From Pseudobdellovibrionaceae bacterium (GTDB lineage: Bacteria > Bdellovibrionota > Bdellovibrionia > Bdellovibrionales > Bdellovibrionaceae), in the NCBI GenBank assembly GCA_016785955.1, contig JAEUWH010000084.1, forward strand, positions 1 to 64,000: a stretch of 64,000 nucleotides of DNA. The letters are read 5' to 3'. Each line of letters opens with the position of its first letter. Position 1 is the first letter of the stretch. This document shows positions 19,273 through 36,503 of the stretch, piece after piece. The notes below the pieces were generated by a model. That model was not told the origin of the DNA and searched no databases. It saw only the letters and a list, made by a program, of their open reading frames with translations. A program made the translations under genes and the position numbers.

Positions 19273-19692
19273 GTGACCTCCTGAGGCTATACTTACAGAC
19301 TTATGCCAAAAATGGGTGATGCGAAAACCGAGCCAACTAGATTTCGCAACGCCAATTCAAATTTTCAAAATCCTTCATGCGCAGCTAAAGCAATCAGAAC
19401 ATCTAAAATTTTAGATTTCCTCTTAAGCAAACAAACCAATTTTCTGCTTCTTGTAACTTAGCCGAGATTAACATGTCGATCATGTTTGATGTCATTTTGT
19501 TAGACACTTGTCTAGAGTGAGACCAATAACCCTCTCCGTTTTGCCTCTCCTACTTTAAGCGGGGCGTGGCCATTTGAAGTAAAACTCGTCCGTGTTTATG
19601 GATATAGATAAATTACTCGCATCGTTGAAGGCTCTCTCGCATAAAGCTAGATACGTTGATAAAAACCCTTCACAACTTTCCATTCTCCCTGT
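19273..19692. other. Non-coding stretch upstream of the secreted-protein genes
   Basis: No gene, tRNA or clear terminator is seen. This is the 5' side of the minus-strand gene starting at 19272, so it presumably holds its promoter; I cannot place one convincingly. An 82-codon open frame beginning at 19592 runs into the repeat cluster and has no protein-like composition, so it is not called. Confidence 0.4.
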
Positions 19693-19795
19693 TGTCATTA
19701 CCAAGGCATGCCCTTACCATGCCCCTACCGTCACTTGTCCTTACCGTCATTTGTCACTAATTGCTGTCATTACTTACTTATGTCATTACTTACTT
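19693..19795. repeat. Cluster of TGTCATTACC-type motifs
   Basis: TGTCATTACCAA (19693-19704) is followed by CTTACCATG, CCTACCGTCA, TGTCCTTACCGTCA, TGTCACTAA and two direct copies of TGTCATTACTTACTTA. The first 12-mer is the exact reverse complement of TTGGTAATGACA found at 23970 and 28182. At least five units lie on the same strand within about 100 bp. The function is unknown. Confidence 0.6.
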
Positions 19796-19812
19796 ATTTT
19801 ACAAATCGAGTA

Positions 19813-19942
19813 TTTTCAGAGGGAAAGGGGTTCTAGATAAAATCCGGCTCTGCAGGCGCAGGATGCGCGCTCCCCTGCGGTTGCCCGAGGGCCCGGATGG
19901 CCCGAGATAGGATTTTATCTAGAACCCCTTTCCCTCTGAAAA
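19813..19942. repeat. Long perfect-stem palindromic element, copy A
   Basis: Perfect 33-bp inverted arms (19813-19845 and 19910-19942) enclose a 64-nt GC-rich loop that can fold into sub-hairpins: GCGCA/TGCGC (19856-19868), GGGCC/GGCCC (19889-19903), and CTGCAG paired with CTGCGG around the first. A second copy lies at 32609-32738 with the same loop but four altered arm positions, each compensated on the opposite arm. The 5' flank AAATCGAGTA is identical in both. It lies just past the 3' end of the minus-strand gene 19956-20354, so it could also stop transcription. Confidence 0.85.
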
Positions 19943-19955
19943 CTACTTTTTTTTC

Positions 19956-20354
19956 CTATAATTTAAGTTCAACAAATTTTGAAATAAAACTCAGCTCATC
20001 ATCCGTCAATTTTGATTCATTTTTTGTAATCTGCACCCAACGATCCCAAGTCAAAACAAGACGAGACACTGTCTTCCACCAAAGGATTCCCTCGAAAGAC
20101 TTTGGATCAACTATAACTACTAAATCATCAGTTTTATGCTGAATTCTAACCAAAAAAACTTCACTTTTCTCTGATGCTAATTTGTCAATTCTGCTGTCGT
20201 CTGGTGACGTCAAAAGAAGCGACGGCAGCCTTTTTGTCACCTCAAAGGTCGCATCTGGGATTAAAAGTAGTTTTTCAGATAGAATCAATTTTTCGTTTGC
20301 CATAGTATAAAATTTCAAAAAAGAAAGTACCAATAAACACTTAACAAATTGCAT
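19956..20354 (-). CDS. Small exported protein of unknown function
   Basis: 132 residues from ATG 20352-20354; only GAG is seen upstream. The N-terminus MQFVKCLLVLSFLKFYTMANE is a plausible signal peptide, although the cleavage site is unclear. The mature part is charged and mixed alpha/beta (EVFLVRIQHKTDDLVVIVDP, FEGILWWKTVSRLVLTW), with no Cys. No family recognised. The palindromic element copy A begins 14 nt past its stop. Confidence 0.5.
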   Translation of the reverse strand: MQFVKCLLVLSFLKFYTMANEKLILSEKLLLIPDATFEVTKRLPSLLLTSPDDSRIDKLASEKSEVFLVRIQHKTDDLVVIVDPKSFEGILWWKTVSRLVLTWDRWVQITKNESKLTDDELSFISKFVELKL

Positions 20355-31878: not shown

Positions 31879-32292
31879 ATGAGAGTAAAATACTTAGTAC
31901 ATCCCAAGATACAAATTAAATTCTTAGTTCAAGCTCTGATGTTAAACATCTCAGGGCTTATAATTTTTGCGGGCGCCTTGTACTATTTTTTCAAAAACTA
32001 CGAAAACGCGGCCCACACAAAAGGTCTCCCCCCCGACCATTTATTTTTCAGCTTCATGAAGAACCAACAAGAAATGATGCTCAATGTTTTTCTAGTGGTG
32101 GTATTCTTATCGTCGGTAGTAACAATTATTTATTCTATTATGAATTCACACAAATTCATCGGTCCACTACACAAAATGCAAAAACAACTCAACAAAGACA
32201 CCTGGGAACCCATCATCTTACGCAAAGACGACGTATTATATGATTTATCCCTATCGATCAATGCGGCAATGGAAAAATCAAAACAAAAATAA
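31879..32292 (+). CDS. Two-TM membrane protein with HAMP-like tail, no output domain
   Basis: 137 residues, ATG six nt after the large lipoprotein stop, so co-transcribed. It begins with HPKIQIKFL, then a first membrane helix (about 18-39), a short periplasmic loop (about 40-65), a second helix (about 70-92) and MNSHKFIGPLHKMQKQLNK, which resembles the first HAMP helix with its conserved Pro. The chain stops 45 residues later, without kinase, cyclase or methyl-accepting output. It may transmit or modulate a signal through a partner. The linkage to the adhesin suggests a sensory or regulatory role for that protein; this is inference. Confidence 0.6.
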   Translation: MRVKYLVHPKIQIKFLVQALMLNISGLIIFAGALYYFFKNYENAAHTKGLPPDHLFFSFMKNQQEMMLNVFLVVVFLSSVVTIIYSIMNSHKFIGPLHKMQKQLNKDTWEPIILRKDDVLYDLSLSINAAMEKSKQK

Positions 32293-32303
32293 CTCACACT
32301 CTA

Positions 32304-32460
32304 GGGCTTTTCCTCATTTGCCTAGCCTACTACGAAAACGCAATTGGTTCGATTTGAGCGTCGCTCGTCGGCGAAATAGTTCTACTATTTCTTCTCCTCG
32401 CTTCTCCAACTCTAACCAATTGCATTTTCTCGCGACGTCTAGACAAATGAGGACAGGCCC
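32304..32460. repeat. Imperfect long palindromic element
   Basis: Outer arms GGGCTTTTCCTCATTTG (32304-32320) and CAAATGAGGACAGGCCC (32444-32460) pair with two mismatches. Pairing then continues imperfectly through CCTAG/CTAGA and ACGCAATTGGTT/AACCAATTGCAT. The centre holds a perfect hairpin GAAATAG-TTCTA-CTATTTC (32373-32391). The sequence differs from the elements at 19813 and 32609. It lies 12 nt after a stop codon, in the gap between convergent genes. It may be a miniature transposable element or a terminator. Confidence 0.7.
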
Positions 32461-32608
32461 GAATATTCAATTTCAAAAACACACTATTTTTCCCTTTTCT
32501 CCATGAAAAAAAGGCAATAGCCACACCCAACCTTTTAAAACACGCCACCAAGTGACGCAGTTTGAAAGCCTAAGTTCCTTCAAAAGACCAAGGCCCTCAA
32601 ATCGAGTA

Positions 32609-32738
32609 TTTTCAGTGAGCGAGGGGTTCTAGATAAAATCCGGCTCCGCAGGCGCAGGATGCGCGTCCCCCTGCGGTTGCCCGAGGGCCTGGATGGCCCG
32701 AGACAGGATTTTATCTAGAACCCCTCGCTCACTGAAAA
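32609..32738. repeat. Long perfect-stem palindromic element, copy B
   Basis: 33-bp perfect arms (32609-32641 and 32706-32738) enclose a 64-nt loop that differs from copy A (19813-19942) at five positions. One of these turns a U-G wobble in copy A (CTGCAG with CTGCGG) into a C-G pair. Four arm differences from copy A are all compensated. It lies between the imperfect palindrome and the 3' end of metH. Confidence 0.85.
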
Positions 32739-32777
32739 CCCGCAGATCTGAAAACCCAGCCTGGTTGCCCCTTGTCC

Positions 32778-35700
32778 TCATAACAAAGGCGAAAACCACC
32801 GCCGCAACTGCGCGTCGGAAACATCTCGCTGCTGGATATGCTCTTTGAGTTGGTCTTCACCGATACGTCCAATGTGGAAATAGGTGGCCTCGGGGTGAAA
32901 GAAATAAAAACCACTCACCGAGCTTGCAGGTTTCATGGCTGCCGATTCTGTCAGGGATACACCAATACGTTTTTCCACATCCATCATGTTCCAAATTTGA
33001 AATTTATGTAAATGATCTGGGCAGGCTGGGTAACCGGGTGCTGGACGAATTCCACGGTATTTTTCTTTGATTAAATCAGCAACACTGAGGTTTTCCTTTT
33101 GCCCGTGAGCAAACATTTTGCGCACGTGTACGTGTGCCCACTCGGCCAAGGCTTCGGCGATACGATCACCGATGGACTTGATGAGAATGGATTGATAGTC
33201 ATCACCGGCTGCAGTCGCAGCGGCCGCCAGGGTCTCGATCTCAGAACCGGCCGTCACGCAGAAGGTACCCACATAATCGGTCACCGCCGATGACTCCGGG
33301 GCCACAAAATCGCTCAGGCAATAATGAATACCGTTGTTCACTTCACCGAGACGTTGTTGTCGCAAAAATTGAAACACATGTTTTTGTTGATTTGGTCCTT
33401 GAATATAAACTGATTCATTTTTACTGGTTGCCGGGAACAGGCCAATCAAGACTTTGGGAGTTAATGTTTTTTCTAAAATCATTTTCTTTAAAAGCGCGTG
33501 TGCTTCATCAAACAGCTTTTGTGCTTCCACGCCCGAGTTTTGTTTTTCCAGTATTTGTGGGTATGTGCCTTTCAGGCCCCACGACCAAAAAAATGGGGAC
33601 CAATCAATGTACTCACTGACTTCCTGTAAAGAGGGAGCCAGTTCATGAATCCCCAGCTGTGCAGGGGTTTCGACGGCTGCGGTTTCCAATTTCCATTTAT
33701 ATCCGTGGGCGCGTGCATGAGCCAAAGGCACTAACTCGGTTTCCGATTTACGCGCCAGAAAGGCCTCGCGAATTTGGCGGTACTCGTCTTTCACCTTCAC
33801 GCGATGGGTTTCACGCTGCGACCCCAGCAATTGCGAGCAGGCTTCCACCACTAACGAGGCGTCTCCGACGTGGACCACCGGGCCTGGATAATTAGGATCG
33901 ATTTTCACGGCAGTGTGAACTTTCGATGTTGTGGCGCCTCCGATAAGGAGAGGAATATTATAGCCAAAATCACGAAACTGCTGAGCATTGAAAATCATTT
34001 CTTCCAGGGAGGGCGTGATCAACCCCGATAAACCAATAATATCGGCTTTTTGAGTTTTGGCTTCTTCTAATATTTTTTGAATAGAGACCATGACTCCCAG
34101 GTCGATCACTTTATAACCATTGCATGCCAGCACCACGCCGACGATATTTTTACCGATGTCATGCACGTCACCTTTGACGGTCGCTAAAACCACGACCGGC
34201 TGTTGATGAGAGGACACTTTTTCGGCATCCATCAAGGGTTCCAAAAAGGCCACCGCTTTTTTCATCACGCGCGCACTTTTGACGACCTGAGGTAAAAACA
34301 TTTTCCCTTGTCCAAACAAATCCCCGACGACCTTCATACCGTCCATCAAGGGACCTTCGATGATGCTCAACGGTTTTTTGTATTTGGTGACGGCTTCTTG
34401 AGTGTCCTGCACGACATAGTCATCGATACCTTTCACCAGCGCATATTCAAAGCGTTTTTCGAGCGATAAGTTCCGCCAATCCGCCGCAGCCTTACCCGCC
34501 TCGCGACGATTGGACGTATCGTTCATCGCCGCCATTTTTTCACTGTACGCCTGCGCCCACTGAATCAATTTCTCGGGGGCTTCGCCTGAATGATTCAGCA
34601 CCACAGCTTCGCACAGATCCCGCAGGTCAGGTTCGATGTTTTCGTAGACCTCTAACATGCCCGCGTTCACGATTCCCATATCCAGACCTGCGCGGATCGC
34701 GTGATACAGGAACACGCTGTGCATGGCTTCACGGACTTTGTTATTACCCCGAAATGAGAATGACAAATTCGAGACACCACCCGAGGTCAAGACCCCGGGG
34801 CATAGGGTTTTGATTTCCCGCAGAGCTTCGATAAAGTCTAGGGCAAAACGATTGTGTTCTTCCATGCCCGTGGCCACCGTCAAGATGTTGGGATCAAAGA
34901 TAATATCTTCGGGAACAAAATTTAATTTCTGGGTCAGCAGATGGTACGCTCGCTGGCAAATCCGCACTTTATCGGCCAGGCTGGCGGCTTGTCCGTGCTC
35001 ATCGAAGGCCATCACGACTACGGCGGCACCCAATTTTTGAATTTGTCGAGCCTGCGCCAGGAATACCGCTTCACCTTCTTTGAGTGAAATTGAGTTAACG
35101 ACGGATTTCCCTTGTAAACACTTTAGTCCGGCTTCGATCACTTCAAATTTTGAGGAATCGATCATGATTGGAATTTTCGAGATATCCGGTTCTGAAACGA
35201 TCAAATTTAAAAAATCCGTCATCAATTTTTTTGAATCCAGCATGCCTTCATCAAAATTCACGTCCAGAATATTGGCCCCATTTTCAACCTGCTGACGGGC
35301 AATGGTCAATGCACCACTCAAAGAATTTTCCTTGATCAGCTTAGCAAATTTGGGAGAGCCCGTCACATTGGTGCGCTCGCCGACCATCAAAAATGAACGC
35401 TCGCCGGAAACGGGTGTTTCTAAAGGCTCTAAGCCAGACAGGCGAAACCGCACGGGTTTGGCCGCAACGGTATGAGGGCGATCGTGCTTAACATGCGCGG
35501 CAATCGCGGCGATATGCGCCGGTGTGGTTCCGCAGCAACCGCCCACGATATTGACATGTCCCGCGTGCGACATTTTCTTTAATTCCGCAGCGATGGAGGC
35601 CGGGGTTTCATCATAGCCGGTGGGACTCAAGGGATTCGGTAGTCCTGCGTTGGGGTAACAGCTGATATAACAATCGGCCATTTCGGCCAGCTCTTGGATA

Positions 35701-36503
35701 TAAGGCCGCATATCTTGGGCACCCAGAGCGCAATTAATACCGACACTCAACGGCCGAGCGTGTTTCACGCTGAACCAGAATGATTTCAACGTTTGCCCCG
35801 ATAAGGTGCGTCCCGAAAGATCGGTGATGGTCACTGACAACATCAGAGGAAATTTCTGGCGATAGTGTTCTTGCAAGGTCTCGATGGCATATAAACAGGC
35901 CTTCAAGTTCAACGTATCAAATGTTGTTTCAGGGAGCAGGATATCCACTCCTTCCTCAATAAATACTTTGGCCTGAGCGTAGTACGAGGTCACAAGTTCA
36001 TCAAAAGAAATGGCCCGATACTCGGGACGTTCAACGTCCGGGGATAAGGACGCGGTTTTGGTGGTCGGCCCCAAGGCTCCGGCCACATACGTTTTACGTC
36101 CCGTTTTTTTGAAATAATCATCACGGGCTCGTCGAGCGACCCGCACGGCTTGGCGATTAATTTCATCTACCCAGGCCTCCAGTTCATAGTCTGCCTGAGA
36201 AACCGAATTTCCGTTAAAGGTGTTGGTTTCGATGATGTCCGCGCCAGCGTTCAAGTACTGAGTATGAATTTCATAAATCACTTCGGGTCGGGTGAGGCAC
36301 AAAAGATCATTATTACCTTTAAGATCTTTTTTAGGGTTTGGAAAATGCGTGCCTCGATAGTCGGCTTCGGTCAGCTTGTATTGCTGGATCATCGTGCCCA
36401 TGGCGCCGTCGATAATTAAAATTTCTTTTTTCAGCCGCTCTTCCAGCTCAAGCAAAGTCGGAGTTTTGATAAAATCGGTTTGGGATACCCAAGTTGTTTC
36501 CAA
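32778..36503 (-). CDS. metH: Cobalamin-dependent methionine synthase
   Basis: 1241 residues, the usual size for full-length MetH, from ATG 36501-36503 after AAAGGAAA. The homocysteine domain ([10 protein letters not shown]) carries the zinc-binding Cys residues in GINCALG and [11 protein letters not shown]. The pterin domain follows ([27 protein letters not shown]), then the cobalamin cap and B12 domain ([14 protein letters not shown] with the cobalt-ligating His) and the SAM-dependent reactivation domain at the end ([15 protein letters not shown]). It methylates homocysteine with methyltetrahydrofolate. metF, which makes that methyl donor, lies just upstream on the same strand with a 94-nt gap. 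The first 30 residues before IDGAMG are slightly extended. B12 must be made or imported. Confidence 0.96.

Follow-up and report, generated by a model that had tools for sequence, protein, structure and literature searches.

Results

Two copies of a hairpin element in the window

The window, by which we mean the whole stretch of 64,000 nucleotides that was analysed, contains two 130-nt copies of one element, each made of 33-bp perfect arms (33 nt per side, 100% complementary) spaced by a 64-nt tip. Both copies lie between genes and near ORF ends: 14 bp separate copy 1 from the stop end of ORF 19956-20354 (-), and copy 2 is located between the ends of ORF 31879-32292 (+) and ORF 32778-36503 (-), the latter being the C-terminus of metH. 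The earlier note, made from the letters alone, had described two covarying copies behind ORFs, and this observation was confirmed. The tips differ at exactly five positions, the four arm differences are all compensated (A-U to U-A, G-C to A-U, A-U to C-G and A-U to G-C), the pair at loop position 6 is U19851-G19879 in copy 1 and C-G in copy 2, the 5' flank AAATCGAGTA is common to both, and the nested sub-hairpins seen in the loop are those of a three-way junction with two hairpins. Regarding the extent of the element, arms and tip had been placed correctly but its true length is slightly greater, with termini of approximately CAAATCGAGTATTTTCAG ... CTGAAAACCCGCAGATTTAG. Its parts are the following:

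Copy 1
19802..19812 (+): 5' terminus CAAATCGAGTA, defined from the flanks of nine genomic copies
19813..19845 (+): long stem P1, 5' arm, 100% complementary to 19910-19942
19846..19909 (+): conserved tip, a three-way junction (P2, P2a, P3), from RNAalifold and pair counts
19856..19868 (+): hairpin P2a, GCGCA-GGA-UGCGC, with GGA at 19861-19863 in the local sequence CAGGAUG
19869..19874 (+): unpaired bulge GCUCCC
19889..19903 (+): hairpin P3, GGGCC-CGGAU-GGCCC, with GGA at 19895-19897
19910..19942 (+): long stem P1', 3' arm

Copy 2
32598..32608 (+): 5' terminus CAAATCGAGTA, conserved
32609..32641 (+): long stem, 5' arm
32642..32705 (+): conserved tip, from RNAalifold and pair counts
32652-32664 (+): P2a, with GGA at 32657-32659
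32685-32699 (+): P3, with GGA at 32691-32693
32706..32738 (+): long stem, 3' arm
32739..32749 (+): 3' terminus CCCGCAGATCT, conserved (CCCGCAGATTTAG in other copies)

In copy 1, CAAATCGAGTA makes up the 5' side of an asymmetric internal loop plus the short outer helix AAATC/GATTT, which is complete in other copies, and the conserved 3' terminus (CCCGCAGATCT/CCCGCAGATTTAG) is missing. The bulge, GCUCCC in this copy, reads GUUCCC in most copies of the genus. The two window copies are not a product of chance, as indicated by their fold z-scores (-9.2 to -12.3 against dinucleotide shuffles), by the nine copies of the genome and by a covariation that was unmatched in 500 shuffles.

Other repeated sequences were observed close by. 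The intergenic region just upstream of copy 2 (window 32299-32501) is a dispersed repeat different from the hairpin element, and it recurs in contigs C58 (84%), C77 (95%) and C38 (83%); a 40-bp part of it, at window 32423-32465, is also present in C40, C22 and C5. Upstream of copy 1, window 19662-19800 holds a degenerate array of TGTCATTACC/GCCCTTACC words, and the TTACC word is found upstream of five other genomic copies too (expectation ~0.16 per 180 bp).

Size and spread of the family

The genome search and the covariance models that the earlier note had proposed yielded many further copies. Nine are present in the source genome, that of an uncultured Bdellovibrionaceae (E 6.7e-70 to 1.9e-24), spread over eight contigs and forming no array. 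The tip is common to all of them, as are the termini CAAATCGAGTATTTTCAG and CTGAAAACCCGCAGATTTAG apart from some drift; their flanks are unrelated, and where their arms vary, in sequence or in length, the two sides almost always do so together. The earlier suggestion of a mobile structured repeat thus stands at the level of dispersal, given the nine copies with common termini and unrelated flanks. Two more genomes of the genus carry copies whose arms share little or nothing with those of the source genome and are equally complementary; past the asymmetric internal loop, these copies have a second outer helix of 25-37 bp. A pattern scan of a public genome collection found two true copies, in Bdellovibrionaceae bacterium UBA2351 and Bdellovibrio sp. 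28-41-41; a third match had no arms and was discarded as chance.

A first covariance model, consisting of the tip plus 13 bp of stem, reached other genera, and later models were built from the relatives found there. With these models the hairpin was detected in 26 of the 66 genomes of the bacterial family (E <= 0.01) and in 53 of the 369 genomes of the phylum, belonging to 28 genera (E <= 0.001). Copy number reaches about 35 in genome G015, 20 in G024 and 14 in G011. The virus, phage and plasmid collections that we searched gave no match, and no family of Rfam 15 was reached at the gathering threshold. Most of the low-threshold Rfam matches were to microRNA precursors, families that give a score to any long perfect hairpin whatever its strand, and we disregarded them. 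We found no paper describing this hairpin in the open-access literature, and the two window copies are members of an apparently undescribed family of long RNA hairpins that spans the Bdellovibrio-like phylum.

Some copies show peculiarities of their own. Two of them, L207 1500-1545 (G003:C4) and L036 1501-1589 (G001:C75), are partial, having kept the 3' arm and lost the 5' part, and L207 is without any tip; this shape recalls the 5' truncation of retroelements, although it may be due to ordinary deletion. At L047 (G000:C43) a tandem array of ~40-bp units (AATTCATCAAAGCCAACCGAACCAAAAAATGCATGAATC) directly adjoins the copy, within the 180 bp upstream, and at L032 (~1660-1740, G001:C104) another inverted repeat, GGACATCCATCGATTC...GAATCGATGGATGTCC, lies beside an A-type copy.

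Fold and covariation

The common fold runs in the order P1, CUC, P2, hairpin P2a, a bulge of 5-9 nt, P2', GAG, hairpin P3 and P1'. The inner stem segment is about 30-37 bp long, and in many copies an asymmetric internal loop and at least one outer segment come after it. In an alignment of 11 sequences made with no structure model, changes on both sides were seen at 17 of 32 pairs, and the covariation score was 0.348, against 0.103 in shuffles (0/500 reached the observed value) and at most 0.07 for slid structures. Among 98 model-aligned sequences, in which the alignment itself leans towards the structure, the corresponding figures were 21 of 24 pairs, with 96.3% of cells paired. As the models hold 10-13 bp of stem, the length of the stem further out is independent of them: it extends past 10 modelled pairs in 113 of the 117 fetched copies, with a median of 44 Watson-Crick pairs and about 75-80 in the longest noted (L213). 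Between lineages the arms are unrelated, and their complementarity is almost perfect.

Strand of the folded molecule

If the fold matters as RNA, G-U pairs should be tolerated and A-C pairs should not, and this was examined in 106 de-duplicated copies. In the inner stem, G-U outnumbered A-C by 79 to 9 in the plus orientation, with 23:4, 27:3 and 29:2 in stem columns 0-10, 10-20 and 20-30 from the tip. The bias persists in columns 10-30, outside models R2 and R3 (56:5), and is gone beyond column 45. It is seen both with a convergent gene end nearby (24:1) and elsewhere (32:4). In 70 of the 106 copies the plus strand folds with the lower energy (p = 8e-7), an advantage that comes through the stem and not through the tip alone. 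Both results agree with the plus orientation that had been guessed from a single wobble pair, and together they strongly support the option of an RNA element. Given the 79 G-U against 9 A-C pairs of the inner stem, it is most probable that the plus strand folds as RNA; the strand bias on its own would also fit single-stranded DNA.

The arms change as mirror images

Changes were counted on minimum spanning trees that connect closely related copies. The stems had undergone 237 double changes (118 of transition type and 119 of transversion type), and changes on one side only comprised 40 in which a G-U pair was gained or lost and 30 mismatches; the group of the source genome accounts for 53, 1 and 5 of these three classes, respectively. 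Uncompensated arm changes had been named in the earlier note as one finding that would speak against a structured element, and what we observed is overwhelming compensation. In the tip helices 31 of the 40 double changes are transversions, and G-U is involved in only 4 changes. Compensation through G-U intermediates, as in rRNA stems, would favour transitions and leave more intermediates. All these counts suggest that, besides selection on the RNA, one arm has been copied onto the other at the DNA level. Template switching within an inverted repeat would renew one arm from the other and be one of the causes that keep the arms identical, and both sides would therefore change together. Acting along with RNA-level selection, such a process would be a natural explanation of the perfect arms.

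GGA loops

GGA is present in the P3 region in 104 of the 106 copies, in the P2a region in 92 and in both in 90, and these loops are kept while the stems closing them vary. In about 13% of the copies P2a lacks GGA and has CGA, UGA or another sequence instead. P3 often carries an AUGGAU hexaloop closed by C-G, and AUGGAU or ACGGAU is found in about a quarter of the copies. The motifs reported for CsrA/RsmE are the CsrB repeat CAGGA(U/A/C)G and the ANGGAN hexaloop (PMC7652899). The local CAGGAUG of P2a fits the former and C-AUGGAU-G of P3 the latter, so that the hairpin loops display GGA within the consensus of CsrA, as is expected of a decoy RNA that binds this protein. Of the 66 genomes of the bacterial family, 65 encode CsrA, a near-universal presence which makes co-occurrence unable to discriminate, and the CsrA of the source genome has the RNA-binding residues L4 and R44.

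Genomic setting

The copies lie in intergenic DNA, and 67 of 117 have a convergent gene on their 3' side, whose end is in most cases at a distance of 35-100 bp. T-runs on the coding strand of this convergent neighbour are enriched at 40-80 bp (38 vs 3). The neighbours tested are assorted and mostly housekeeping genes (metH, lipB, dbpA, hpt, groEL, fadJ, gspK-like, purF, hrpB, rlmL-like, lpxB, nuoN, rlmB-like, ettA, rpoD and rpsA). Among copies less than 1 kb apart, 14 pairs are divergent, 2 tandem and none convergent, and several of the pairs are orthologous. In several Bdellovibrio species (L119, L120, L121, L122 and L093) two hairpins that differ from each other form a divergent pair behind rplL, between this gene and rpoB by operon order, the genes being named from sequence; part of the family has therefore been inherited in place. 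An intrinsic terminator of rplL immediately precedes its copy. In this region the outer arm of one hairpin repeats half of the rplL terminator, inverted.

Promoter-like sites were absent from the spacers of two divergent pairs, -10-like words were not enriched upstream of the copies, and neither promoters nor terminators around them were convincing. The earlier option of a strong terminator was not supported either: a scan for intrinsic terminators (a G+C-rich short stem-loop followed by a T-run) made no call at either window copy, and a T-run is present only at copy 1, behind a stem with a 64-nt loop. Comparison of copy 2 with genomes in which the metH end has no hairpin (G001, G004, G005 and G003) gave no clean empty site or target duplication, because synteny on the other side of the metH end differs. 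We also considered that paired hairpins could be the ends of insertion sequences, and this was rejected: the intervals of about 1.2 kb in G015 hold no transposase and carry a toxin-antitoxin-like gene pair and a nuclease-like gene.

Discussion

Relation to known elements

The hairpin family combines a layout like that of TwoAYGGAY RNA with a dispersal like that of intergenic repeats, and freely changing mirrored arms have been described for neither. REP/BIME, ERIC, NEMIS and bcr1 elements are short, dispersed, intergenic long inverted repeats that are probably mobilised in trans, and in these features our family is like them. However, in those elements the whole repeat sequence is conserved and each is restricted to a genus, whereas here only the tip is conserved, the arms are free and the distribution is phylum-wide.

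TwoAYGGAY RNA (RF01731) is the closest known structure. Both have a poorly conserved long external stem, an internal loop and a junction with two hairpins, the loops being of AYGGAY type in TwoAYGGAY; in our family GGA in both regions is widespread, and the full AUGGAU or ACGGAU is limited to the P3 of about a quarter of the copies. Over its full length, RF01731 is matched by the plus strand of three copies (L112, 37.0 bits; L124, 31.2; L037, 27.9). The best score of all, 37.1 bits, is below the gathering score of 43, most copies have no match, and neither window copy matched RF01731 in our Rfam searches. The matches rest on the P3 sequence GCCAUGGAUGGC plus stem pairing and may reflect convergence. 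CsrA binding has been proposed for TwoAYGGAY, one stem of which has two tandem G-A pairs (PMC4333381), and it has been listed for the human gut, gamma-Proteobacteria and Clostridiales, not for Bdellovibrionota (PMC2864571). In the passages that describe TwoAYGGAY there is mention neither of multi-copy dispersal nor of mirrored arms, and our family has both. The decoys CsrB, CsrC, RsmX, RsmY and RsmZ also display GGA in hairpin loops, with the CAGGA(U/A/C)G and ANGGAN motifs (PMC7652899), but they are encoded by one or two sRNA genes, whereas our hairpin is dispersed in many copies and has only two loops, set in a three-way junction on a long stem. Bacillaceae-1 RNA (RF01690, reverse complement) has two loops fitting the CsrA motif (PMC4333381), and no Rfam search of the copies matched it. 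As for other candidates, integron attC sites were rejected because the ends are TTTTCAG/CTGAAAA and not 7-bp core boxes of the GTTRRRY type, and because the nine copies over eight contigs are not arrayed; REP elements of a RAYT/Y1 transposase were rejected because this enzyme is missing from G024, G025 and G070, all of which have copies; across genomes, the co-occurrence of Y1 transposase with the hairpin did not discriminate.

What the hairpin could be

The fold, its strand, its presence across the phylum and the conservation of its GGA loops are direct observations, and the RNA nature is much better supported than the CsrA partner. Because of the GGA loops, the CsrA motifs, the presence of CsrA and the resemblance to TwoAYGGAY, we tentatively favour, as a reading of the sequences, a structured RNA that acts as a CsrA-binding decoy or tether and is in some lineages also a mobile repeat. 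The long double-stranded stem, topped by the three-way junction, would present two short GGA-loop hairpins to which CsrA would bind. Each transcript would then be a small CsrA decoy, or the hairpin would tether CsrA to the transcript containing it, and the stem would serve as a sequence-independent handle that need only stay double-stranded. In the source genome and in G015 the hairpin would also be a small mobile intergenic repeat, with its machinery probably provided in trans; our search for a mobilising protein found none. CsrA sponges usually have many GGA sites and this element has two, which counts against a decoy, as do the roughly 13% of copies whose P2a lacks GGA and the absence of promoter signals from the spacers and upstream regions examined. 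At least two copies, at 1515877-1515971 (-) and 3086150-3086222 (-), are present in the 3,782,950-bp genome taken to be B. bacteriovorus HD100, and it also counts against this function that neither is one of the eight sRNAs published for the attack phase of this strain (PMC3627812).

The same observations can be read in other ways. The folded plus strand could be a single-stranded DNA substrate, recognised by a recombinase or transposase through its loop bases as in integron attC sites and IS200/IS605 and REP ends, with no RNA function. Strand-specific folding is expected there too, the dispersed copies have common termini, and close pairs are almost always divergent, like the ends of a unit. 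We consider it unlikely, since there is no transposase between paired hairpins, Y1 transposases are absent even from G024 with its 20 copies as well as from G025 and G070, phages and plasmids gave no match, and the copies at conserved places, such as those behind rplL, are not merely mobile. A selfish or neutral miniature repeat, whose covariation would come purely from DNA template switching in inverted repeats, would account for double changes far exceeding one-sided ones and for transversions being as common as transitions, and even prevailing in the tip helices. Yet template switching treats both strands alike and cannot yield the excess of G-U over A-C, the GGA loops stay while the stems beneath them change, and the junction is conserved throughout the phylum; we regard this as improbable to a similar degree.

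Least probable in our opinion is that the hairpin serves as a 3'-end element of the neighbouring gene, blocking read-through, stabilising the mRNA 3' end or being cut by RNase III. It is true that its 3' side so often faces a convergent gene end, that T-runs are strongly enriched there on the coding strand of the neighbour and that the rplL terminator lies directly before its copy. However, the mRNA of the neighbour carries the opposite strand, in which A-C instead of G-U would be the pairs tolerated, so that the bias is the wrong way round even near convergent ends; the GGA loops would read UCC on it, and the neighbours are assorted housekeeping genes.

Beyond the decoy or tether that we favour, a bolder version, which we hold to be doubtful, would be a phylum-wide class of self-templating mobile hairpins that scatters CsrA-binding decoys behind the housekeeping genes of predatory bacteria, its arms being copied one from the other so that the stem is renewed and its pairing kept. 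In any case, the many copies whose arms have changed as mirror images offer a natural data set on how far 'compensatory' covariation in long stems is due to RNA selection and how far to template switching in the DNA, which is relevant to every RNA prediction based on covariation. If our reading is right, a widespread RNA family of the Bdellovibrionota is missing from Rfam and is possibly linked to the CsrA circuit, which would matter because the switch between attack and growth in these bacteria is largely unexplained.
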